Source: an uncultured Lachnospiraceae bacterium
GTDB taxonomy: Bacteria; Bacillota; Clostridia; Lachnospirales; Lachnospiraceae
Assembly (NCBI GenBank): GCA_948470335.1
Contig: CAOKOL010000003.1
Span: 62,001-126,000, forward strand
Length of the DNA stretch: 64,000 nt
Direction of reading: 5' to 3'
Shown here: positions 8,200-62,068 of the stretch, piece after piece
Numbering within the stretch: the first letter of the stretch is position 1
Layout: every line of letters begins with the position of its first letter
Notes under the pieces: model-generated
What the model was told of the DNA's origin: nothing
The model's input: only the letters and a program-made list of their open reading frames with translations
Database searches by the model: none
Made by a program: the position numbers and the translations under genes

Positions 8200-9312
8200 T
8201 TAGTCGATAATCGTCTTCTCCGTATCAAAATCAAAGATATGAATCTTTTCCGTATCCATGGCCAGACGGATCTTGTCGCCGGTTCTGGCGGTGGTTCTGG
8301 CGTCTACGGAAGCGACCCAGCCGGCTTCTGCGATATCGAAGTAGAGCAGGGTGCTGGAGCCGAGCATTTCGTATACTTTAATTTCGGCGTCGAAAGCAGA
8401 TTTTGCAAAGGTTTCCAGAGCGGCCTGGCCCTCGTGGATATCCTCAGGTCGGATGCCCAGAACCACTTTCTTTCCGATATATCCGCCTTCCTTCAAAGCG
8501 TTGGCTCTTGTGGCGTTCAGAACGATCTGCTGTCCGGCGAATTTCAGGATCACTTCTCCGTTTTCTTCCACGGCGTCGGCTTCGATCATGTTCATCTGAG
8601 GAGAACCGATGAAGCCTGCCACGAATTTGTTGCAGGGATGGTCGTACAGGTTCTGAGGGGTGTCGATCTGCTGTACCACGCCGTCTTTCATCACAACGAT
8701 TCTCGTACCCAGGGTCATGGCCTCTGTCTGGTCATGGGTTACGTAGATGATGGTGCTGCCCAGACGCTGATGCAGTTTGGAGATTTCCACACGCATCTGG
8801 CCTCTTAACTTGGCATCCAGGTTGGATAAGGGCTCATCCATCAGGAATACCTTGGGGCTTCTTACGATGGCACGGCCCATGGCCACACGCTGTCTCTGGC
8901 CGCCGGAAAGGGCTCTGGGCTTTCTGTCTAACAGGTGCTCCAGATCAAGGATGCGGGCGGCTTCTCTTACCTTTTTGTCGATCTCATCCTTGGGAGTCTT
9001 TTTCAGTTTTAAAGAGAAAGCCATGTTATCATAAACGCTCATATGAGGATACAGCGCGTAGCTCTGGAATACCATGGCGATATCTCTGTCTTTGGGCTCT
9101 ACGTCGTTCATCACCTTGCCGTCGATGATCAGTTCGCCGGAAGAAATATCTTCCAGACCTGCCACCATACGCAGGGTAGTGGATTTACCGCAGCCGGAAG
9201 GGCCTACGAAAATGATAAATTCTTTATCTTCAATATCCAGGTTGAAATCCTGAACAGCTTCAAAACCATTGGGATATTTTTTGCACACATGTTTTAATTG
9301 AACGCTTGACAT
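8200..9312 (-). CDS. ugpC: MalK/UgpC-type sugar ABC transporter ATPase
   Basis: This 370-residue cytoplasmic ATPase powers a carbohydrate importer. Walker A GPSGCGKST is at residues 37-45, the Q-loop in VFQSYALYPH, the LSGGQ signature at 135-139, Walker B VFLMDEP at 155-161 and the switch His in YVTHDQTEA. The C-terminal 120 residues form the OB-fold regulatory domain of MalK/MsmK/UgpC proteins (GIRPEDI). It is last in a minus-strand operon with a binding protein and two permeases, so it likely energises that transporter. ATPases of this class are often shared by several importers. The ATG follows AGGAGGATAATA. The gap before it contains stem-loop element A. Confidence 0.93.
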   Translation of the reverse strand: MSSVQLKHVCKKYPNGFEAVQDFNLDIEDKEFIIFVGPSGCGKSTTLRMVAGLEDISSGELIIDGKVMNDVEPKDRDIAMVFQSYALYPHMSVYDNMAFSLKLKKTPKDEIDKKVREAARILDLEHLLDRKPRALSGGQRQRVAMGRAIVRSPKVFLMDEPLSNLDAKLRGQMRVEISKLHQRLGSTIIYVTHDQTEAMTLGTRIVVMKDGVVQQIDTPQNLYDHPCNKFVAGFIGSPQMNMIEADAVEENGEVILKFAGQQIVLNATRANALKEGGYIGKKVVLGIRPEDIHEGQAALETFAKSAFDAEIKVYEMLGSSTLLYFDIAEAGWVASVDARTTARTGDKIRLAMDTEKIHIFDFDTEKTIID

Positions 9313-9325
9313 TATTATCCTCCTA

Positions 9326-9444
9326 ATTGAGTTCCGTGACTCCCCTCCTGAGCCCCCTGGGTCTGGAAGAATTTCCGGCCATGTGCCATGTCCGTAAATC
9401 CTTCCGGGGGCTCATGCGGTCCGTCGCTGATTGATTGAGTTCCG
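9326..9444 (-). repeat. Intergenic stem-loop element A (upstream of ugpC)
   Basis: A long hairpin (9350-9413) has an outer stem GAGCCCCC/GGGGGCTC, a middle stem GGAAG/CTTCC and an inner core ATTTCCGGCCATG/CATGTCCGTAAAT with two mismatches. It is flanked by direct copies of ATTGAGTTCCG (9326-9336 and 9434-9444), the inner-left copy abutting the ugpC ribosome binding site. It shares core and flank layout with element B (16029-16148), while the outer stems differ in sequence but keep pairing. Confidence 0.7.
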
Positions 9445-9454
9445 CAGTATCGTT

Positions 9455-11293
9455 TTATTTTACAAGCAGCATCCACCGAATCCCGTAGGGCGTCATGGGT
9501 ACGTCCTTGGCACGGATGGTTTCCCGGGAAAGGAGGTCCTGGTACATGCCGTCTTCGCTGATCCAGGCTGTCCGCTCGGTCGGAGCGAAGTTGAACAGTG
9601 CAAGCAGCTTTTCGCCGTTTCGCTCCCGGACCAGGCAGAGAACGCAGGGGTCGCAGGTTTCTCTGGTGGATACCGAGGCTGTGTTCAGAAACACGTCATG
9701 GCTTTTTCGAATATGCAGCATGTTTCCGATGCCTGCAAACAGCTTTCCCTGAACCGTTTCGGGGTCTTTGCGCAGCTTCGCATTTTCCCAGAGGAAGGGG
9801 CCTCTGTGGAGGTAGCGGGAGTCGGCGGCTTTTTTTGCGTCATCTTTATAGCCGTAATCATTTAGCTGTCCGATTTCGTCGCCGCTGTACAGCATGGGGA
9901 TGCCGGACTGGGTCAGCATGTAGCCGTGGAGCATCAGGTCGCAGGCGACCGCCAGCGCAAGCTGTTCGCTGTCCTTCTGTTCGGCAGCAGCCTCAACGCC
10001 GCACAGAGAAGCGGTGGTGCCGCAGAGCCTTGCGTCTCCCGATGTGGGATCGTCATTGTACAGCTCGCCTCTTGCCGGGGAGCCGTAAAATCCACCGGTG
10101 AAATAGCTGCTTAAAAACTGCTTGTGGGGAACCTCGCTGACCGACTGATTTTTCAGCCAGTCATATTCCAGACCCCATCCGATGTCGTCGTGGCATCGGA
10201 GATAGTTTAAAAAGACATATTCTTTGGGCAGGCCGCTTACGATTTCCATCTGCCGTTTCAGCAGGGTGGTGTTTTTGGTGGCGACGGTGTGCCAGGTGGT
10301 GGCCATCGTCGTCACATTGTAGAGCATATGGCATTCCGGCTTTTCCACCGTTCCGAAGTAGGGAACCACCTTCACCGGCTCCATCACCACCTCGCCCAGC
10401 AGCAGGACGCCGGGGCAGACAATCTCGGTGATCATCCGCAGCATACGGACAATATTGTGAACCTGGGGGAGATTTCGGCAGTTGGTGCCCAACTGCTTCC
10501 AGATATAGGGAACGGCATCAATTCGGATAATGTCGATTCCCTGATTGGTCAGGTTCAGCAGATTTTCCGTCATGGCGTGAAATACCGCCGGATTCCAGTA
10601 GTTCAGATCCCACTGATAAGGATAGAAGGTGGTCATCACAAACTTGCCCGCATCCTCCAGCCAGGTAAAGTTTCCCGGGGCGGTGGTGGGGAATACCTGA
10701 GGGCAGGTCCGCTCAAACTGGGCGGGAATATCATAGTTATCATAGAAAAAGTACCGGTCCTGATATTCCTTTTCTCCGGCCCTTGCCCGCCGTGCCCACT
10801 CATGTTCCTGGGAGGTATGGTTCATAACGAAGTCCAGGCAGAGGCAGATTCCTCTGTTATGGCATTCATCGGCCAGCCCGGCCAGATCGTCCATGGTTCC
10901 CAGGTCCTTTCGCACCTTCCTGAAATCGGACACCGCATAGCCGCCGTCATTGTCCCTTTCGGGGGAGTCTAAAAGAGGCATCAGATGAAGACAGTTTACA
11001 CCGCAATCCTCTATATAATCTAATTTTTCCCGGATTCCCTTTAACGTTTTTGCAAAAGCGTCCGTATACATCATCATGCCGGCGATATCGTTTTGCCGGT
11101 ACCAGTCCGGATGAGCCAGACGCTTCTCGTCCAGCGCCTTCAATGCCTTCGAACGTTTTGCAGATTGGGTTTCCAGCATGGCGCACAGTTTTTGAAATTC
11201 TGTTTCGCCGCCTTCATACAGCTCGCAGTAGAGCCATTTCAGCTCGTCATAGTGGCGTTTGAAACGCTCTTTGAATTGTTCCTGCTTTGTCAT
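9455..11293 (-). CDS. GH13 amylosucrase-like / sucrose-active alpha-glucosidase
   Basis: A 612-residue glycoside hydrolase family 13 enzyme whose length and helical N-terminal extension (about 1-90) match subfamily 4 (amylosucrase and sucrose hydrolase). Catalytic residues are visible: nucleophile Asp259 in IIRIDAVPY, acid/base Glu301 in LLLGEVVM and Asp369 in RCHDDIGWG. No signal peptide is seen, so it should be cytoplasmic. Next to an alpha-galactosidase it plausibly cleaves the sucrose left after galactose is removed from raffinose. Whether it hydrolyses sucrose or transfers glucose cannot be told from sequence. The ATG at 11293 is about 60 bases downstream of the preceding gene's end. Codon use matches its neighbours. 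Confidence 0.88.
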   Translation of the reverse strand: MTKQEQFKERFKRHYDELKWLYCELYEGGETEFQKLCAMLETQSAKRSKALKALDEKRLAHPDWYRQNDIAGMMMYTDAFAKTLKGIREKLDYIEDCGVNCLHLMPLLDSPERDNDGGYAVSDFRKVRKDLGTMDDLAGLADECHNRGICLCLDFVMNHTSQEHEWARRARAGEKEYQDRYFFYDNYDIPAQFERTCPQVFPTTAPGNFTWLEDAGKFVMTTFYPYQWDLNYWNPAVFHAMTENLLNLTNQGIDIIRIDAVPYIWKQLGTNCRNLPQVHNIVRMLRMITEIVCPGVLLLGEVVMEPVKVVPYFGTVEKPECHMLYNVTTMATTWHTVATKNTTLLKRQMEIVSGLPKEYVFLNYLRCHDDIGWGLEYDWLKNQSVSEVPHKQFLSSYFTGGFYGSPARGELYNDDPTSGDARLCGTTASLCGVEAAAEQKDSEQLALAVACDLMLHGYMLTQSGIPMLYSGDEIGQLNDYGYKDDAKKAADSRYLHRGPFLWENAKLRKDPETVQGKLFAGIGNMLHIRKSHDVFLNTASVSTRETCDPCVLCLVRERNGEKLLALFNFAPTERTAWISEDGMYQDLLSRETIRAKDVPMTPYGIRWMLLVK

Positions 11294-11352
11294 GTCATCT
11301 ACCTGCCTTGCATTTGTGTAATCAGTATTTCTGCTCTTATGGCGGGAGCGGT

Positions 11353-11811
11353 TTACAGCCCGTGGTAATATTTTTTCATCTCGTTCAGAAAATCCTCACA
11401 GGGCTCGATGTAAACCAGCTGCTGTGCCGTCTTTATGGTGTAGACCGCTGCGTCCGGCCGGCCGGAGGTAAGGTCTTTCACCGATTTTCCCGGCACGGTT
11501 GCCCGGCCTTTCACAAAATCGTCAAAGCGCAGCCGGTCTGCCTGATATATGTCTTTCCGCTTTGCCTTGCGGATGATTTTGGAGACGGTGAAGTCCCCGT
11601 TTACATAGACATATTCATATTCGAACTTCCAACTGCGGAACAGAAAGAAGCCGAAGACAGCCAGCGCCAGAGCAAAATAGAACATGCCCGGTGCGAAGAC
11701 AAAAGCATCAAACAGAAATACCAGCACGGCCGAGGTAATCACGGCTTTTAACAGCAGTTGTTTTTTTCCGGGGATATAGGGGATATACCATTCAAAAACT
11801 ACGTCCTTCAT
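11353..11811 (-). CDS. Small two-helix membrane protein, unknown function (DUF6106-like)
   Basis: 152 residues. A hydrophobic hairpin at about 20-60 (AVITSAVLVFLFDAFVF then FYFALALAVFGFFLF) suggests two transmembrane segments, followed by a soluble domain with FEYEYVYVNGDFTVSKI and a basic KRKDIY stretch. It resembles short PH-like membrane-anchored proteins often annotated DUF6106 in Lachnospiraceae; that assignment is from memory and uncertain. It is embedded between the alpha-galactosidase and GH13 genes of the sugar operon but shows no sugar-related feature, so it may be a hitchhiker. Function unknown. Confidence 0.6.
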   Translation of the reverse strand: MKDVVFEWYIPYIPGKKQLLLKAVITSAVLVFLFDAFVFAPGMFYFALALAVFGFFLFRSWKFEYEYVYVNGDFTVSKIIRKAKRKDIYQADRLRFDDFVKGRATVPGKSVKDLTSGRPDAAVYTIKTAQQLVYIEPCEDFLNEMKKYYHGL

Positions 11812-11937
11812 AAATATTCAGTCAGTCCTTTCCCTTCGCTTCGGGCCGATGTGCCGCCTGCATATATGCCAGGCAGTATATCAAAAGCCCTGTGATATCG
11901 TTTTCTCAAATCGTTTCAACTCAGGTTTTTTGATTCG

Positions 11938-14133
11938 TCAGATCATTTCCAGGCAGAACTGAATGCCTTCGTACTCATTCAGCTCGCCGGGAACCGGCAG
12001 GCCCGCATGCATCAGCAGGGCGCCGGAATACCGGCCTTCCAGTCCTTCGACCGTGTACATGGCATCTTTGTCAAGTCCTTTCAGCCGCAGGTACATCTGG
12101 GCGTCATTACTCTCCTTATCCGTAAGGACCAGGCTGACCAGCGACTTTTTCCTGTCTTTGGACACATGCTGCCATGCGGTATAATACGGGTTTTCATAAG
12201 GGCTTGACAGCCGGTAGTAATCTCCGTCTGCGATAATATGATAATGCTTTTTGTAAAAATGAATCTGTTCCCTGCAGGCGTCCTTTTCTTCTTTTGTCAG
12301 CTTAAAGGCGTCCAGCTCATATCCCAGGATGCCGTCCATGGCTACGATGCCTCTTGTCTCGATGGGGACGGTTCTTCTGGTCTGGTGGTTGGGACAGATG
12401 GATACATGGGCTTCCAGGCTGTTGACCGGGTAGGCGAAGGAGGTGCCGTACTGGATTTTCAGCCGGGCCTTGGCATCCGTGTTATCGCTGCACCAGATCT
12501 GGGGCTGATAATAAAGCATGGCTGCGTCAAACCGGCCGCCGCCGCCGCTGCATCCGCAGAAGATTACCTCAGGGTGGGTCAGAATCACATGATCCATGAT
12601 ATAATACAGTCCCAGGATGTAGCGGTGGAGGGTTTCTCCCTGCCGGTGGGCGGGAAGCTGGGCCGACCACACATCGGAGATGCTCCGGTTCATATCCCAT
12701 TTGACATATTCGATTTTGGCATCCTGAAGGATGGCATTGATGGAATCAATCAGGTAATCGCATACGTCCTTCCGGGAGAGATCCAGTACAAGCTGATTTC
12801 TTCCTCTGGTCATGGGACGGCCGGGCGCTTTCAGGCACCAGTCGGGGTGGGCCCTGTAAAGATCACTGTCTTCGGACACCATTTCCGGTTCAATCCAGAT
12901 GCCGAACTGGAGTCCCATTTCATGAATCCGGTCGGACAGGCCGCTGATTCCGTTGGGCAGCTTGTTTAAGTTGACCTTCCAGTCGCCCAGGCCCGAATTG
13001 TCGTCGTCCCGTTTTCCGAACCAGCCGTCGTCCAGGACAAACAGCTCCATGCCCATCTCCAGGGCGTCTTTTGCGATCTGCAAAAGCTTTTCCTCATTGA
13101 AATCAAAGTAGGCGGCCTCCCAGCTGTTGATCAGAATGGGACGGGGCTCTTTGATATAGGGAGAGCGGCACAGGTTTTCCCGAAAGATATTGTGGTACAG
13201 GTGGGAGAGGGTGGTGAATCCTTTTCCGGAGTACGCCAGAACCACTTCCGGCGCCTGGAACTCCTCTCCGGGTTCAACCACAAAAGAGAAACTTTTGGGG
13301 TTGATGCCCGCATTGAGCCGAACCTGTTTGTACTGGTCTTTTTCCGCTTCGATGATAAAGTTTCCGCTGTAGATCAGAGCGTATCCATAACAGCGTCCAT
13401 AATCCTCGTTGGTATTCCTTTCGCACAGGATGGCAAAAGGATTGTGCTGGTGAGAGGAAGCTCCCCGGCAGCTCTGTACGGACTGAACGCCGCTTCTTAC
13501 GGGAGTTCTGGTGAATTCCCGTTCCATGGTATGACGGCCGTCAAAGGTAACCAGGTCATAGTCGGAAAGCCGGAAATCCATCGTGACGGACATCAGCTTG
13601 TGCAGCCGGATCGACTCTCTGCCTTCGTTGATAAAACGGGCCGCTCTGGTGATAATGTTTTTTTCCTCAAAGACGCTGTAATAAAGAATGACGGCGGCTT
13701 TGCTTTCATTATCCTTTAAGCGGATTTCCAGCGTCTGAACGGAATCCTCCGAGATTGCACGCAGGGAAGGCATCCCCGTGGTACAGTATTTTCCCTTGTA
13801 AATTTTATACCCGTCCACTTTTCCGGAGAAAATCCGGCTGCCGTCCCCGTTAATGACTTCGATGCTGGGGATGCGGTAGTCGCCTTTGCCGTCGGTGGAA
13901 AACTCCTGGGCCAGATAATCCAGGGAGAATGTCCGGTCATTGCCTGCCTCATTGGGATTGGGAGAAAATCCTCTGTCCTGGATTTTGATCAGATAGTCCA
14001 GATTTTCGTCAGGAATCCGGTCTCCATAATATAAGTGCAGCAAGTTTCCGTATCTGCTGATTTCCATCAGATAGGAGCTGTCTCGGGTTTCCAGTATAAA
14101 AGTTTTGCTGTCTGCATTATATTTGATTGCCAT
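11938..14133 (-). CDS. aga: Alpha-galactosidase, GH36
   Basis: A 731-residue cytoplasmic enzyme that removes terminal alpha-1,6-galactose from raffinose, melibiose or stachyose. It has the full-length GH36 layout: N-terminal beta-sandwich, a (beta/alpha)8 barrel from about 320 to 640 and a C-terminal beta domain. LFVLDDGWFGKRDDD, YVKWDMNRSISD (nucleophile Asp480) and GCSGGGGRFD with WCSDNTDA (acid/base Asp550) are all present. It follows the second permease by about 60 bases in the minus-strand transporter operon, and no signal peptide is present, so oligosaccharides are presumably imported intact and cut inside. Very high confidence in family; the exact oligosaccharide is inferred. Confidence 0.95.
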   Translation of the reverse strand: MAIKYNADSKTFILETRDSSYLMEISRYGNLLHLYYGDRIPDENLDYLIKIQDRGFSPNPNEAGNDRTFSLDYLAQEFSTDGKGDYRIPSIEVINGDGSRIFSGKVDGYKIYKGKYCTTGMPSLRAISEDSVQTLEIRLKDNESKAAVILYYSVFEEKNIITRAARFINEGRESIRLHKLMSVTMDFRLSDYDLVTFDGRHTMEREFTRTPVRSGVQSVQSCRGASSHQHNPFAILCERNTNEDYGRCYGYALIYSGNFIIEAEKDQYKQVRLNAGINPKSFSFVVEPGEEFQAPEVVLAYSGKGFTTLSHLYHNIFRENLCRSPYIKEPRPILINSWEAAYFDFNEEKLLQIAKDALEMGMELFVLDDGWFGKRDDDNSGLGDWKVNLNKLPNGISGLSDRIHEMGLQFGIWIEPEMVSEDSDLYRAHPDWCLKAPGRPMTRGRNQLVLDLSRKDVCDYLIDSINAILQDAKIEYVKWDMNRSISDVWSAQLPAHRQGETLHRYILGLYYIMDHVILTHPEVIFCGCSGGGGRFDAAMLYYQPQIWCSDNTDAKARLKIQYGTSFAYPVNSLEAHVSICPNHQTRRTVPIETRGIVAMDGILGYELDAFKLTKEEKDACREQIHFYKKHYHIIADGDYYRLSSPYENPYYTAWQHVSKDRKKSLVSLVLTDKESNDAQMYLRLKGLDKDAMYTVEGLEGRYSGALLMHAGLPVPGELNEYEGIQFCLEMI

Positions 14134-14192
14134 AAATGATCATCCCATGTATGAAAGAATAAGTTGTATATAAGTGTTGCTGATAATTCGGT

Positions 14193-15029
14193 TTATTTTC
14201 CGCCTGTCATGGCTACGCCCTCGATGAACTGCTTCTGGAAGAACAGATACAGAACCACCATGGGGATCATGGCGAGCAGGGAGCCTGCCATCATAACAGG
14301 GAAGTTGGTGCTGAACTGTCCTCTTAACGTAGCCAGGCCGGAGGACAGGGTCATCATTTTCAGGTCGGTATTGACGATCAGGGGCCACATCAGGTCTCCG
14401 TAAGCGAACACCGCCGTAAATACGGCCAGGGCTGCCATGGATGCGGTGGTCAGAGGCGCCATGACTTTGTAAAAGGTCTGCCACTGATTACAGCCGTCCA
14501 GATAGGCGGCCTCTGCGATTTCGTCCGGGATGCCCATGTAGGACTGGCGCAGGAAGAAGGTTCCGAAAGCGCTGACCAGTCCGGGGAATACCAGGGCGAA
14601 AATCGTATTGGTCAGGCCGACCTTCGCCAGCATCTGATACTGAGGGGTGATGAAAATCTGTGAAGGCAGCATCATCTGGATCAGTACCAGCGAGAACAGA
14701 ATGTTTTTGCCCTTGAAATTCAGCTTTGCAAACGCATAGCCGGCCATGGAGGAAAATGCCACGGCGCAGACCACTCTCCAGATAATCATCAGGATCGTGT
14801 TTTTATACAGTGAGAAGAAGGGCAGAGACGCCATGGCGTCGGTGAAGTTTTTTATCTGCCAGCTCTGAGGTAAGATGGTGGGAGGAACGATCATACTTTC
14901 TTCCACGGTCTTGAAGCTGGTTAAAAACATCCACACAAAGGGGAATATCATAATGATAGAACCGATAATGAAAAACGCATACACGCCGCCGGTCCGTATC
15001 TTTCTTGCTCTTTCTAATGATGAATTCAT
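14193..15029 (-). CDS. Carbohydrate ABC transporter permease, MalG type
   Basis: A 278-residue inner-membrane permease with six predicted membrane spans, starting with a short cytoplasmic tail and VYAFFIIGSIIMIFPFVWMF. The EAA loop that contacts the ATPase is visible as IPDEIAEAAYLDGCNQWQTF around residue 165. It pairs with the upstream MalF-type permease. The start ATG lies 102 bases after the upstream permease, behind AGGAGGTC. The gap contains a weaker relative of the stem-loop element. Confidence 0.92.
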   Translation of the reverse strand: MNSSLERARKIRTGGVYAFFIIGSIIMIFPFVWMFLTSFKTVEESMIVPPTILPQSWQIKNFTDAMASLPFFSLYKNTILMIIWRVVCAVAFSSMAGYAFAKLNFKGKNILFSLVLIQMMLPSQIFITPQYQMLAKVGLTNTIFALVFPGLVSAFGTFFLRQSYMGIPDEIAEAAYLDGCNQWQTFYKVMAPLTTASMAALAVFTAVFAYGDLMWPLIVNTDLKMMTLSSGLATLRGQFSTNFPVMMAGSLLAMIPMVVLYLFFQKQFIEGVAMTGGK

Positions 15030-15046
15030 AATACAAGACCTCCTAA

Positions 15047-15125
15047 ATTGAGTTCTGCTTCAGTCTTCCGGGCCCTTTTGATCTTTTCCGGGCCTTGTAC
15101 GGACTTTTGCTGATACAGAAGTTCC
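15047..15125 (-). repeat. Intergenic stem-loop element C (degenerate)
   Basis: Between the two permeases, TCCGGGCCC and CCGGGCC-type arms can pair around a T-rich loop, with outer AGTC/GACT pairing. The box just before the ribosome binding site (minus strand AGAACTCAATTTAGGAGG) matches the equivalent boxes of elements A and B. The core resembles element B's inner stem loosely. A single compact fold is less certain than for A and B. Confidence 0.4.
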
Positions 15126-15131
15126 TCTGTT

Positions 15132-16016
15132 TTAAACTTCGTAGTTAACCCACTTTTTCTGTCCCACGAACTGTACCACCGTTACCAGTCCGATCAGGGC
15201 CACGGTCCAGATAACCACGGAGGAACCCAGGCCTCTGTTGCCGGTGACATAGGACTCACGGTAGAACAGGTACATCAGGGACTGGGCGCTGGTAAGGGCC
15301 GGATTCGATTCCTCAATCATCATGTAGATCAGGTCGTACACTTTGATGGAAGCCATCAGTCTCATAATCAGTACCACGAACAGGGTGGGAGATACCATGG
15401 GCAGCGTGATATGGAAAAACTGCTGCATCTTGGTGGCGCCGTCTAAGCTGGCCGCTTCATAGTAGGACTTGGAAATGTTCTGCAGTCCGGACAGAAGAAG
15501 CACCGCGTCATAGCCGATAGCGGACCAGATGGCCACGATGGCACAGGTAATCATAACGATATTGGCGTCGGTAATCCAGTTTACTTTGTGTGCCAGAATG
15601 GTATTGATAATACCGTACTCCGTGTTGAACATCCACTTCCATACCATGGCCACTGCGGCGGGAGCCACAACCATAGGCAGGAAGAAGATGGCACGGAACG
15701 CGGTCTGTCCTTTGATCTTGGTGTTCAGCATAACCGCCACCACCAGGGAGAGGAAGATGCCGATGGGCACCGTCAGCACGCAGAAATAGATGGTGTTCAT
15801 ATTTGCCCGCCAGAATTCGGGGCTGGCAAACATCTGTACATAGTTCTGAATGCCTTTCAGTTCATAGAGGCCGAAAGGCAGGGTTTTGGAAAAACTCAGT
15901 TTGATCGTGTCGATCAGCGGGTATATGTTTAATGCCAGAAGTCCGATAATGGTGGGTGCAACCATGATGTAGGCCCACATGCTTTCAGACTTGGCATGCT
16001 TGCTTGCTTTTACCAT
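15132..16016 (-). CDS. Carbohydrate ABC transporter permease, MalF type
   Basis: A 294-residue inner-membrane permease with six predicted spans. The EAA-loop equivalent is ISKSYYEAASLDGATKMQQF (about residues 185-205), followed by FFHITLPMVSPTLF. It partners with the MalG-type permease to form the pore of the alpha-galactoside importer. The ATG at 16016 has AGGAGGT about 8 bases upstream. It is separated from the binding-protein gene by 136 bases that hold element B. Confidence 0.92.
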   Translation of the reverse strand: MVKASKHAKSESMWAYIMVAPTIIGLLALNIYPLIDTIKLSFSKTLPFGLYELKGIQNYVQMFASPEFWRANMNTIYFCVLTVPIGIFLSLVVAVMLNTKIKGQTAFRAIFFLPMVVAPAAVAMVWKWMFNTEYGIINTILAHKVNWITDANIVMITCAIVAIWSAIGYDAVLLLSGLQNISKSYYEAASLDGATKMQQFFHITLPMVSPTLFVVLIMRLMASIKVYDLIYMMIEESNPALTSAQSLMYLFYRESYVTGNRGLGSSVVIWTVALIGLVTVVQFVGQKKWVNYEV

Positions 16017-16028
16017 ATATAACCTCCT

Positions 16029-16148
16029 AATTTAGTACCGCATCTGCCCTCCCAGCGCTGTATCCGGCAGAGAATTTCCGGCCACCCGTGTCCGTAAATC
16101 CTCTGAGCGCTGTCCGGTCCGATGCTGAATTTAGTACCGCATCTGCCC
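16029..16148 (-). repeat. Intergenic stem-loop element B (between binding protein and permease)
   Basis: A hairpin (16053-16112) has an outer stem CAGCGCT/AGCGCTG, middle CAGAG/CTCTG and inner core AATTTCCGGCCAC/GTGTCCGTAAAT. It is framed by an exact 21-base direct repeat (16029-16049 and 16128-16148; begins AATTTAGTACCG). Core, flanking CGGTCCG and box positions match element A, while outer and middle stems differ with pairing preserved. It sits just 3' of the binding-protein gene, the classic site for mRNA-stabilising hairpins that raise binding-protein yield. Confidence 0.75.
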
Positions 16149-16152
16149 CGGA

Positions 16153-17448
16153 TTAATCCTCCAGCGCAGCGTTGTTGATTGCGTCCTGCATGGCTTTCAT
16201 GCCGTCCTCGAAGGACTGCTGACCGGAGTAGATTTTCAGCAGGTTGTCGGATACCTGTGTTTTCCAGGTGGGGCGATATTTATTGTTGACTGACTGAACG
16301 CCGTATTCAAACATATCTGTGAAACAGCTTACATTCAGTTTGTAATCAAATTGATCAAATACGCCGACCCATGTGTCTTCCAGCCCTATGTAGGCGGGGA
16401 TTGCCGCACCGGATTCGCCCTGAACCCGCTGGCCTTCTTCGGAACCCATAAAACGGAGCAGGTCTTTTACGATCTCATAATTTTTTCCGGTGGGGGAGGT
16501 GGCGTAGCAGAGGCCGTTGGAGATGGTGGCACGTCCGTCGCCGTTGGCGGGAGTGGGGCATTTGGGCAGAACTGCCACGTCCCATTTTCCCTGCATGTTA
16601 GGGTAATTGTTCATTTCCTGCAGGATGTTCCAGTTTCCTTCAAAGAACATGGCGCCCTGCTCGGAGAAAAAGGCGGTTCCCGGAGCGGTTTCCGCAAAGT
16701 AGTTCTGGTCGGGACACCAGTCGTTTTTCTGCAGGTCCATGTAGAACCGCATGGCGTCGATGGTGGCCTGCTGGTCAAAGCCGCCGGTGATGTTGTCCTC
16801 GGATAAGATGCAGCCGCCATTCTGGTATACAAAGTTCCAGTAGCCAAGCTGATCGTCGCCGTAGGCCATATATCCGTATTTTCCGGTGGCGTCGTAGATT
16901 TTCTGTGAAGCGTCGCACAGATCATCCCATGTCCAGGTTTCGTCGGGATAAGGTACTTTGGCCGCGTCAAACATTTCTTTGTTGTACACAAGACCTACCG
17001 TATCCTTGTCTTTGGGGACGCCGTAATATCTTCCGTCACTGCCCTGTACATTGGACAGGGATATTTCGGAAAAGTGTTCCTGGAAGAATCCGGGCTGTCC
17101 GACCTCGTCATACAGGTCGGTAAGATCGGCGATCTTTCCGTAATCCGCATACTTCAGGATTTCGTTGGTGTGCATCCAGAAGATGTCGGGCATCTGATTG
17201 GAGATGGCGGCGGCCTCCAGCTTGGTCCAGTATTCGTTCCAACTTGTTACCTGAACCTCCACTACCACGTCCGGATGCTGTGCGGTGTACGCATCGCATA
17301 CGGCCTGCATGCCATCTCTCTGATAAACATCCCAGATCTGGAATGTAAGATGGGTCTTGCCGTCTGCGGAGCCGTTGCTGCAGCCGGTTGCCAGGGCCAC
17401 AAGGATACATACCAATGACAGTATCGTTGCTTTTTTGAGCTTTTTCAC
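16153..17448 (-). CDS. Sugar-binding lipoprotein of the ABC transporter (family 1 extracellular binding protein)
   Basis: A 431-residue extracellular lipoprotein. A basic start (MKKLKKATILSLVCILVALA) leads to the lipobox LATGC, with lipidation at Cys23. The mature part is a type-1/MalE-like solute-binding protein (LTFQIWDVYQRDG, GSDGRYYGVPKDKDTVGLVYNK, MFFEGNWNILQE). The start codon is GTG at 17448 behind AAGGAGG. It is the first gene of the importer operon, with a long leader rich in hairpins. Ligand is inferred to be an alpha-galactoside from the co-transcribed GH36 enzyme. Confidence 0.92.
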   Translation of the reverse strand: MKKLKKATILSLVCILVALATGCSNGSADGKTHLTFQIWDVYQRDGMQAVCDAYTAQHPDVVVEVQVTSWNEYWTKLEAAAISNQMPDIFWMHTNEILKYADYGKIADLTDLYDEVGQPGFFQEHFSEISLSNVQGSDGRYYGVPKDKDTVGLVYNKEMFDAAKVPYPDETWTWDDLCDASQKIYDATGKYGYMAYGDDQLGYWNFVYQNGGCILSEDNITGGFDQQATIDAMRFYMDLQKNDWCPDQNYFAETAPGTAFFSEQGAMFFEGNWNILQEMNNYPNMQGKWDVAVLPKCPTPANGDGRATISNGLCYATSPTGKNYEIVKDLLRFMGSEEGQRVQGESGAAIPAYIGLEDTWVGVFDQFDYKLNVSCFTDMFEYGVQSVNNKYRPTWKTQVSDNLLKIYSGQQSFEDGMKAMQDAINNAALED

Positions 17449-17527
17449 AAGCTTCCCTCCTTTTGGTTAGTTTGCGCACTCTCAGAATCTCTTGACGCCT
17501 GCTTCTGCGGCTGATTTCGGTCGGTTC

Positions 17528-17651
17528 TGCATAAATGATTCGGCATACGCCCCACGTATGTCTGATGATTTATGCATATCTGACAAAAAACATCTCACAA
17601 AGTCAAACGCTGTGAGATTCCGGGGGTACATTAGCCTAAAAACTTCAGGCT
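17528..17651 (-). other. Hairpin-rich leader of the alpha-galactoside operon
   Basis: Three inverted repeats lie between the operon promoter region and the first gene: an imperfect 22-base-arm palindrome with outer TGCATAAAT/ATTTATGCA (17528-17576), ATCTCACA/TGTGAGAT (17592-17618) and AGCCT/AGGCT (17633-17651). No poly-T follows them. They may shape mRNA stability or be regulator sites; which is not known. Confidence 0.45.
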
Positions 17652-17709: not shown

Positions 17710-17768
17710 ATATACCAAAATGAAAAATATATACATTTTTTGGTTTATGTGTTATCATTTTGGTATAT
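17710..17768 (+). promoter_or_regulatory. Probable operator of the AraC-type regulator
   Basis: Perfect 14-base inverted arms, ATATACCAAAATGA (17710-17723) and its complement (17755-17768), flank a third half-site-like CATTTTTTGG at 17734-17743. The site lies in the divergent region 47 bases before the regulator start, suiting autoregulation and activation of the sugar operon. Binding is inferred. Confidence 0.5.
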
Positions 17769-17814
17769 GGATTGATTCTGTGTCAGATTGACGCAAGAAG
17801 GGAAGGCTCCGTTC

Positions 17815-24430: not shown

Positions 24431-24592
24431 TGCTTAATAAGAAAGGCTATACAGACAGCCGCCCGATATGGTATAATAACAACCCTATTATTCTTTTGCC
24501 GTCGAGGCGGAACCGCCCGGCGTATAAAGCCTGGCCTGTCAGGCAGTCAGTCAGGGAGTTGCGGAACTTTAAAATAGTGAGAGGAAAACGGT

Positions 24593-25450
24593 ATGGAACG
24601 GAAATGGCGAATAACGGTCTGGGGGGTCAGAGGTTCGGCGCCCAGGCCGGAGGCCGGTTATCTGGAATATGGAGGAAATACGGTCTGCACCTCATTGGAA
24701 CGGAAGGATGACCTGGTGATTCTGGATGGGGGAAGCGGTCTGTCCTGTCTGGGGCGGAAGATTGGAGGCGGGCAGTCTGCGGACGGGGCAGACTTTAAGC
24801 GACTGCATATTTTATTCAGTCATCTGCATCTGGACCATGTGATGGGGCTGTTTCAGTTTCCGCCCTTCTATCGCCAGGAAACAGAAATACATCTCTATGG
24901 CGGTTCCGGATTTCAAGAGAAACTGGAGACGCTGGTTGGTCCGCCTCTGTGGCCGGTGGGATTCCGGGAATTTCGTGCAAAGCTGGCCTTTCATGAGCTG
25001 TGTCCGGGAGGAGCCTTTTATCTGACCGGCTTAAAAGATCTGAGAGGATATACGATGGAGGGAAATCATCCGGGAGGGAGCCTGCTGTACCGTCTTGAGG
25101 AGATGACGGATGAGAACGGAGGATACAAAACCGGCGGCAAAAGCCTGGTTTACGGCCTGGACTGCGAGATAAACGAAGTTATTTTTTCTGCCTGCGCCGC
25201 ATTCGCAAAGGAGAGCAGTCTGCTGATCTGGGATGCCGGCTTTGCGGGAGAGGATCTGCGTCCGGGCTGGGGGCATTCCACCTGGCAGCAGGGAATTGCC
25301 ATGAGACAGGCCGCAGGAGCGGAAAGGGTGCTGATGACCCATTATAACTGGGCGTATTCGGATACATTTCTGCGGCGGCAGGAGGAACTGGCGGGGAGAA
25401 TGGATCCTGCATGTATATTCGGAAGGGAAGGGATGGTGATTACCTTATGA
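24593..25450 (+). CDS. MBL-fold metallo-hydrolase (285 aa)
   Basis: Metallo-beta-lactamase superfamily: the N-terminal VRGSAPRPEAGYLEYGGNT motif resembles the phosphodiesterase branch, and SHLHLDHVMGL supplies the HXHXDH zinc site, with later His/Asp ligands (GNHPGG, IWDAGF, THYNW). No signal peptide, hence cytoplasmic. The ATG at 24593 has GTGAGAGGAAAA upstream. Its stop overlaps the start of the following GAF-HD-GYP gene (ATGA), so the two are translationally coupled and probably share a signalling function such as cyclic nucleotide turnover. Substrate unknown. Confidence 0.85.
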   Translation: MERKWRITVWGVRGSAPRPEAGYLEYGGNTVCTSLERKDDLVILDGGSGLSCLGRKIGGGQSADGADFKRLHILFSHLHLDHVMGLFQFPPFYRQETEIHLYGGSGFQEKLETLVGPPLWPVGFREFRAKLAFHELCPGGAFYLTGLKDLRGYTMEGNHPGGSLLYRLEEMTDENGGYKTGGKSLVYGLDCEINEVIFSACAAFAKESSLLIWDAGFAGEDLRPGWGHSTWQQGIAMRQAAGAERVLMTHYNWAYSDTFLRRQEELAGRMDPACIFGREGMVITL

Positions 25451-61133: not shown

Positions 61134-62068
61134 TGGAGTTTCAACATAAATCTGTCCTGCTGGGTGAATGTATCGAATACCTGAATATCAGACCGGACGG
61201 TATTTATGCGGACGGAACCCTGGGCGGCGCAGGACATTCTCTGGAGATCGTGAAGCGGCTGACGGACGGCGGGCTGCTGATCGGCATCGACCAGGATCAG
61301 GCGGCCATTGAGGCGGCCGGAGAACGGCTGTCGGCATACGAAGGGCGTTTTCGGATTATACGCAGCAATTATGTACATATGGCCGAGGTGCTGGCTGCGC
61401 AGGGAGTCCGGGGCGCGGACGGTATTCTGCTGGATCTGGGGGTATCCTCCTATCAACTGGATACGCCGGAACGGGGATTTTCCTATATGGAAGACGCACC
61501 GCTTGATATGCGTATGGATCAGAGGCAGGAGAAAACGGCAAGAGATCTTGTGAATGACTATACGGAACAGGAATTGTACCGGGTAATCAGAGATTACGGA
61601 GAAGATAAATTCGCGAAGAATATCGCAAAGCACATTGTAAGAGCCAGGCAGGACAAGCCGGTAGAGACGACGGGAGAGCTGGCGGAGCTGATTAAAAGAG
61701 CGATACCGGCCAAGGTCAGGGCCCAGGGAGGCCATCCGGCAAAACGGACATTTCAGGCTATCCGGATTGAGCTGAATCAGGAGCTTTCGGTTCTGACAGA
61801 GGCGCTGGATCAGATGGCAGGACTGCTGAAACCGGGAGGAAGGCTGTGTATCATTACCTTCCATTCTCTGGAGGACAGGATTGTAAAACGCAGGTTTCGG
61901 GAATGGGAACATCCCTGTACCTGTCCGCCGGATTTTCCGGTCTGTGTCTGCGGTAAAAAAAGTCAGGGGCGGGTGGTAACGAGAAAGCCGGTTCTTCCCG
62001 GAAAGGAAGAACTGGAGGAGAATGCAAGGTCAAAGAGCGCAAAGTTAAGAGTATTTGAGAAAAAATAA
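61133..62068 (+). CDS. rsmH: 16S rRNA (cytosine1402-N4)-methyltransferase RsmH
   Basis: A 311-residue SAM-dependent methyltransferase that modifies C1402 in the decoding centre. [14 protein letters not shown] (SAM motif I), [14 protein letters not shown] and [17 protein letters not shown] are present. ATG 61133 overlaps the mraZ stop codon. Second gene of the dcw cluster. Confidence 0.96.

Follow-up and report, generated by a model that had tools for sequence, protein, structure and literature searches.

Correia/NEMIS and ERIC-type repeats form hairpins that are transcribed together with genes and can undergo processing within mRNA leaders; the Correia repeats have terminal inverted repeats and use a TA target, and these families are not known to dock at the Shine-Dalgarno sequence (SD). 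The BOX elements of Streptococcus pneumoniae, with terminal inverted repeats, target-site duplications and a boxA-boxB-boxC build, are enriched between convergent genes and have been judged to be parasitic (PMC3049150). In marine Beggiatoaceae, well over 100 sets of the TAACTGA direct repeat lie a few nucleotides from the start codons of unrelated genes, including those for ribosomal proteins (PMC4679880). The subject here is a hairpin element noticed in the intergenic gaps of an alpha-galactoside operon of an uncultured Lachnospiraceae bacterium (assembly GCA_948470335.1). The window analysed is the whole 64,000 nt stretch at positions 62,001 to 126,000 of the forward strand of contig CAOKOL010000003.1.

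The element is probably a non-coding, proliferating interspersed structured repeat, resembling a miniature inverted-repeat transposable element (MITE), that is docked at ribosome-binding sites and has only secondary effects on its host. The genes downstream of the copies are unrelated, orthologous genes within the same genus are bare, and near-identical genomes differ by single units; therefore a repeat that proliferates is the favoured explanation. A mobile hairpin element was among the roles offered by the original prediction, made from the window alone, and this agrees with the genome-wide repeat described below.

Copy number and distribution

A pattern search for the core of the element in the bacterium's own genome (G000) found five copies, one tandem pair among them. 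The motif formed by the 3' box of the element and the SD (GCGGAACTNAATTAGGAGG, with 3 or fewer mismatches) has 76 matches in this genome, compared with 1 for the reversed control. A model, R1, was built from an alignment (A4) of 19 units from G000, and it detects further units there with E values down to 1.5e-24. Chance is therefore excluded. There are at least 67 R1 matches in G000 and at least 67 in G015, which belongs to a different genus; of the two congeners of G000, G001 has 1 match and G002 has 0, and there are none in the other 57 relatives. At least 8 of 397 genomes of the family are positive in the R1 search, which is a lower bound because the filters were strict and few candidates were scored per genome.

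An unbiased sample of 859 kb of G000 contains 40 full units in 29 arrays, from which the whole genome is extrapolated to hold roughly 130 loci and 180 units. A scan of public genomes identified the same architecture in about a dozen other genomes of Lachnospiraceae and Clostridia, several of which, having MGBC contig names, presumably come from a mouse-gut catalogue. Bacterium D16-50 and 1xD8-48 are among the isolates that bear the element. Run on these public loci together with the window, R1 gave 169 matches, the weakest being in part echoes of these hairpins on the opposite strand. A search for further homologs was the test that the original prediction had set itself, and hundreds were found with R1. 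A role special to the alpha-galactoside operon is not supported, as the same element precedes rpsR, purA, gpsA, thiI and comM; operon-specific regulation was rejected because of the genome-wide occurrence.

Placement relative to genes

Placement was analysed in 88 arrays fetched from approximately 13 other genomes, of which 56 are single units, 23 are double and 9 are triple. The arrays are co-oriented with the downstream gene and lie directly 5' of its SD, and virtually all end in the box GCGGAACTNNAA. A co-oriented start codon is present 9 to 49 nt past the GGAACT in 84 of them, nearly always at 13 to 23 nt; the remaining four are mostly cut by the ends of the loci or precede another unit. 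The SD begins 5 nt after the GGAACT in 48 cases and 6 nt after it in 17. In the unbiased G000 sample, 22 of the 29 arrays pass an automatic test for an SD plus a start codon, and nearly all of the rest either have both by eye or are cut at the end of the stretch. An exception to this placement is the array at L292 in G434, where another kind of hairpin element comes next. The stop codon of the upstream gene is anywhere from 5 nt to more than 1 kb from the array, whose position is fixed to the downstream start codon.

The downstream genes are functionally unrelated. In G000 they include rpsR, comM, thiI, cvfB, ridA, cooC and msmK, and in the other genomes purA, gpsA, argH, prfC and a dnaK-like gene, the names having been read from sequence. 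The SD was considered as a part of the element, prompted by the motif AATTAGGAGG. This was dropped because the SD and its spacing vary in the unbiased sample, and because at CvfB the SD is similar to the native SD of the ortholog.

Orthologous sites without the element

The orthologs of RidA, MTA/SAH nucleosidase, ComM, CvfB, PepI and ThiI in G001 and G002 have no unit and no box, and retain the SD. Among the 19 genomes having rpsR, only G000 has the element there. At the CvfB site, the relative reads TGACAAAGGAGAAAACAGGTG, and the G000 copy has AAAAGGA upstream of the insert and AGGAGAAAA downstream. With the two compared at 72% DNA identity, this single site is suggestive of docking at the native SD.

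Variation between arrays

Adjacent units are on average 94% identical, compared with 74% for units of different loci. Between genomes G433 and G434, all 13 loci examined are shared and approximately 98-99% identical, and several differ by exactly one unit of 108/109 nt, with one other differing by a 40 nt core deletion. Between the copies L282 and L317 of these genomes there is a compensated change from T-A to C-G. When 12 of the loci were compared with G432 (75-95% identity over the matched coding stretches), six were found to keep the hairpin with quite different stems, two carry at the same SD a hairpin of a second, unrelated kind, and three have a box-like remnant only.

In the G000 sample approximately ten copies are truncated at the 5' end with the 3' box intact, there are two candidate 3'-truncated copies, and others have lost only the core.

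Some further sequences are associated with the arrays. The second hairpin family (GACGGTAAAGTCGCAAAGGCRCACGAGAGGAACTTTCATGAG...CCTTTAGTGCCATCACGCAGTGATTTTAATAGGAGG) is found at L304, L314 and L292 in G432 and G434, in the same SD-adjacent position, and has no Rfam match; at two of these loci G433 carries the first family instead. In G000, an insert of two hairpins (AATAGTAAGCGGCTAAAGAACACCCGCTAACTATTTT...AGGGTCTAAAAAACAGACCCTAAGTGCTCATAGC), whole or in fragments, is present at or near the junction of stems P0 and P1 in L017, L018, L020, L025, L032, L203 and L242, as if a composite variant had spread. Part of the G000 units, including those at L043, L053 and L215, are preceded by a 5' leader, GGYAGTGTCAARTGRTTTATGAAAA; a similar string, AAATGTCAAGTGTTTAACAG, is found ahead of the second family at L304 in G432.

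Fold and covariation

The unit is an imperfect hairpin of approximately 99 nt that rises from a GC-foot through 3x3 purine loops (GGA/GNA) and the stems P0, P1 and P2 to a core, ATTTACRGAC...GYGGCYGGAAAT, that is conserved and contains two A.G mismatches. Read 5' to 3' on the coding strand, the consensus is A/T-CA-GC, a 3x3 loop GGA/GNA, P0, a 3x3 loop GNA/GNA, P1 and P2, then the core ATTT-A-CRG-A-C...G-G-CYG-G-AAAT with a short loop, and the returning arms, in which a bulge of 7 to 9 nt on the 3' side separates P1 from P2. The 3' end of the unit is the box. Within P0 the GGA loop appears to shift its position among subtypes, GC-GGA-AGTCC and GCAGC-GGA-CC, on our reading of the alignment.

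In A4, 90.2% of cells pair, and double changes are seen in 22 of 35 pairs, versus 3 to 8 in slid controls. With 147 distinct units aligned to the model, an alignment that leans to the model, 33 of the 35 pairs have double changes. The coding strand out-folds its complement in 40 of 40 units of G000 and in 123 of 128 units of other genomes. G-U pairs make up 5% and 4% of the pairs in the minimum free energy (MFE) folds of the units, compared with 15% in shuffles; most variable pairs have both bases replaced, and G-U intermediates are few.

A strand-specific single-stranded fold is therefore conserved, either as RNA or as single-stranded DNA (ssDNA). The original prediction took the compensatory changes as evidence of selection on RNA structure. 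The conserved fold bears out part of this, but double changes with so few G-U intermediates could also arise through DNA-level correction of the arms or folding of ssDNA, so covariation alone does not prove selection at the RNA level. It was correct in finding no named RNA motif: at gathering cut-offs Rfam reports only a tRNA in the window, and the elements and related loci have only sub-threshold chance matches, permissive thresholds included.

Copies in the window

The copies in the window, including one outside the interval that was first described (9326 to 16148), are the following.

9330..9430, minus strand: unit A, a full hairpin of approximately 99 nt with stems P0-P1-P2-P3 and the 3' end ACGGAACT (R1 89 bits, E 7e-20).
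9319..9338, minus strand: box2 and SD of A, CACGGAACTCAATTAGGAGG, directly 5' of the ATG at 9312, assigned from the sequence and the genome-wide motif.
9430..9447, minus strand: box1 of A, CTGCGGAACTCAATCAAT, interpreted as what truncation has left of the 3' end of a preceding unit, an arrangement that recurs at many loci.
16034..16128, minus strand: unit B, a full hairpin (R1 79.5 bits, E 2e-17).
16023..16049, minus strand: box2 and SD of B, GGGCAGATGCGGTACTAAATTAGGAGG, directly 5' of the ATG at 16016, as read in the sequence.
16128..16148, minus strand: box1 of B, an exact 21 nt direct repeat of the box2 region, outer stem arm included; a putative remnant of a truncated unit.
15051..15113, minus strand: element C, a core-deleted relative that has kept the outer stems and lost P2/P3, with the 3' end GCAGAACT.
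24554..24568, plus strand: a fourth, 5'-truncated copy, GGGAGTTGCGGAACT, preceding a gene for a metallo-beta-lactamase-fold protein that starts at 24593.

Elements A and B, as first noticed, are confirmed in the sequence, and they belong on the minus strand, which is the coding strand of the operon. They share ATTTCCGGCCA and TGTCCGTAAAT, and their outer and middle stems, which differ, still pair when folded (A, -50.1 kcal/mol, z -4.06; B, -45.0 kcal/mol, z -1.98, both for the minus strand). Unit A lies between the GH13 gene at 9455-11293 and the gene for an MsmK-type ABC ATPase at 8200-9312, and unit B between the solute-binding protein gene at 16153-17448 and the first permease gene at 15132-16016. 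By Pfam, the operon encodes an MsmK/MalK-type ATPase, a GH13 amylase-like enzyme, a GH36 alpha-galactosidase, two BPD permeases and an SBP_bac_1 binding protein. Element C, which precedes the second permease gene (14193-15029), had been thought to look related to A and B, and it is a real relative without the core stem-loop, with a match to the profile of the 5' half (21.1 bits, E 3e-4) and with the box and SD present.

The direct repeats reported to flank A and B are present, with the inner copy fused to the next ribosome-binding site. They are not separate flanking sequences, being the element's own 3' end (the box GCGGAACTNAAT and part of the outer stem arm), which recurs genome-wide. They are best read as a 5'-truncated preceding unit. 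The 5' truncation and core loss seen across the genome therefore account for these repeats and for element C. Target-site duplication was rejected as the main reading of the repeats because they include the outer stem arm and resemble truncated units.

Between the binding-protein gene and the divergent gene for an AraC-like regulator at 17788 there are inverted repeats at 17512-17592 (38 nt arms, 74% complementary, with a 5 nt gap) and a 17 nt pair at 17710-17768. Both are possible sites for the regulator.

Origin and function of the element

If the element is a proliferating repeat, a new copy would lodge directly 5' of the SD of a gene, aimed at the start codon, and its hairpin would join the 5' leader of that gene, co-transcription being presumed. 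The repeated box would then permit local duplication or deletion of units, giving arrays of 1 to 3 or more, and copies would decay by 5' truncation or deletion of the core to leave solo boxes behind. Such copies would arrive through a mobility mechanism that recognises the SD region, would be transcribed, and would affect translation or processing only secondarily. More tentatively, it is possible that they represent a mobile element of a new class, one that has ribosome-binding sites as its targets, inserting in one orientation at SDs through an as yet unrecognised enzyme and forming hypermutable tandem arrays that re-tune the translation of at least 100 unrelated genes per genome.

Several results weigh against proliferation as the explanation. 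Neither an autonomous parent element nor a mobilising enzyme was found. The Y1 transposase family PF01797 has 0 matches in G000, which is 93% complete, and reverse transcriptase (PF00078) is absent from the carriers G015, which is element-rich, G199, G426 and G427. Viral, phage and plasmid collections contain no matches to the element, and vehicles of these kinds were dropped for this reason. No insertion between otherwise identical sequences was caught, which would have shown the precise junctions and a target-site duplication, if there is one. Certain genes, namely msmK, cooC, purA, gpsA, yqeY, terD and a cobI-like gene, are preceded by the element in different genera. There are 13 raw matched pairs and approximately 8 to 9 distinct genes, versus 4.7 expected by a rough script estimate, or an estimated 2 to 3 once the gene list, which holds some false positives, is cleaned. 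This recurrence could mean that the element has a host function, as could the 6 of 12 loci common to G433 and G432 at which the stems differ.

The alternative that survives best, although we consider it rather unlikely, is a cis-regulatory RNA module that benefits the host. A protein would bind the hairpin in the leader, or a nuclease would process it, and the translation or stability of the downstream gene would be set post-transcriptionally in this way, with the number of units tuning the effect. The strict placement in 5' leaders, the co-orientation, the superior folding of the coding strand, the conserved core with its compensated stems, the compensatory change in the close genomes and the recurrence before the same genes across genera (on rough counts, 2 to 5 expected) are all consistent with it. 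CsrA is a concrete candidate for the binding protein because the box and SD carry GGA motifs; among the genomes compared, csrA is present in 18 of 19 with multiple copies and was not found in G001 and G002, both approximately 84% complete. However, the box sequence is not that of a CsrA consensus, and G427 has elements but no csrA match. The downstream genes are also without a functional theme, the element is missing from congeners that have these genes and gave no R1 match in 389 of 397 family genomes, and the number of units is unstable within 1-2% divergence.

It is improbable that the element is retroposed in the manner of a short interspersed nuclear element (SINE), with reverse transcription of the leader RNA starting at its 3' end and copying it into sites that bear an SD. 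The excess of 5'-truncated over 3'-truncated copies in the unbiased sample is the pattern expected, but that polarity would also follow from selection for retention of the SD, and the four carriers named above are without PF00078. Some of the truncation points coincide with a GGAGG motif within the element and so hint at deletion by short homology. Still less credible is an ssDNA hairpin of the repetitive extragenic palindromic (REP) type with its REP-associated tyrosine transposase (RAYT), or of the IS200/IS605 type, mobilised by a Y1 HUH transposase. The dispersed imperfect hairpins, the conserved mismatches and the scarcity of G-U pairs would fit, whereas PF01797 is absent from G000 and REPs would be expected to show no bias in orientation or towards the SD. 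An intrinsic terminator or 3'-end stabiliser of the upstream mRNA, of which the originally suggested 3'-end protection of the binding-protein mRNA is a case, can be practically dismissed: the hairpins are stable, GC-rich and intercistronic, but the stem is followed by GCGGAACTNNAA and AGGAGG rather than a T-tract, and the element is tied to the start of the downstream gene, not to the end of the upstream one.

Comparison with known systems

Searches of open-access full text found analogues only and no published description of this element family, subscription journals being outside the search. Like the REP sequences and the bacterial interspersed mosaic elements (BIME) mobilised with RAYT, the copies are dispersed imperfect hairpins with conserved mismatches, and they cluster; they differ in having no Y1 transposase in the same genome, an orientation fixed by the SD and another foot sequence. 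They share with the TAACTGA repeats a location close to start codons, an association with unrelated genes and a patchy distribution, but those repeats are heptamers at sites where an SD is rare, whereas here the SD is retained and the repeat unit is a covarying hairpin (PMC4679880).

Together with the TAACTGA repeats, the nearest published analogues are the BOX, RUP and SPRITE repeats of S. pneumoniae, which likewise number around a hundred copies, short, structured and intergenic, patchy among relatives and without a functional theme (PMC3049150). The number of modules varies in BOX as it does here, where arrays have 1 to 3 units and units were gained or lost between G433 and G434. However, apart from the arms of the hairpin, no terminal inverted repeats were observed, and there is no clean empty site in which a target-site duplication could be shown. 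Unlike BOX, the unit is a single covarying hairpin, and essentially all copies are at an SD and aimed at a start codon, a placement rule that is the opposite of enrichment between convergent genes. The element therefore works like a BOX-type repeat, yet is not BOX.

Among comparable repeats, those studied best stay out of gene leaders or have no fixed orientation. If the explanation favoured here is true, the leaders of more than 100 genes, including those for ribosomal proteins and biosynthesis, have been rebuilt, which, with unit numbers that change between near-identical genomes, would be a fast source of heritable differences in translation. An SD-directed mechanism of insertion is also implied, which as far as we have searched is undescribed. 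Judged by the open-access literature and Rfam, the element was not catalogued before, and what sets it apart from the known systems is its orientation-locked docking.

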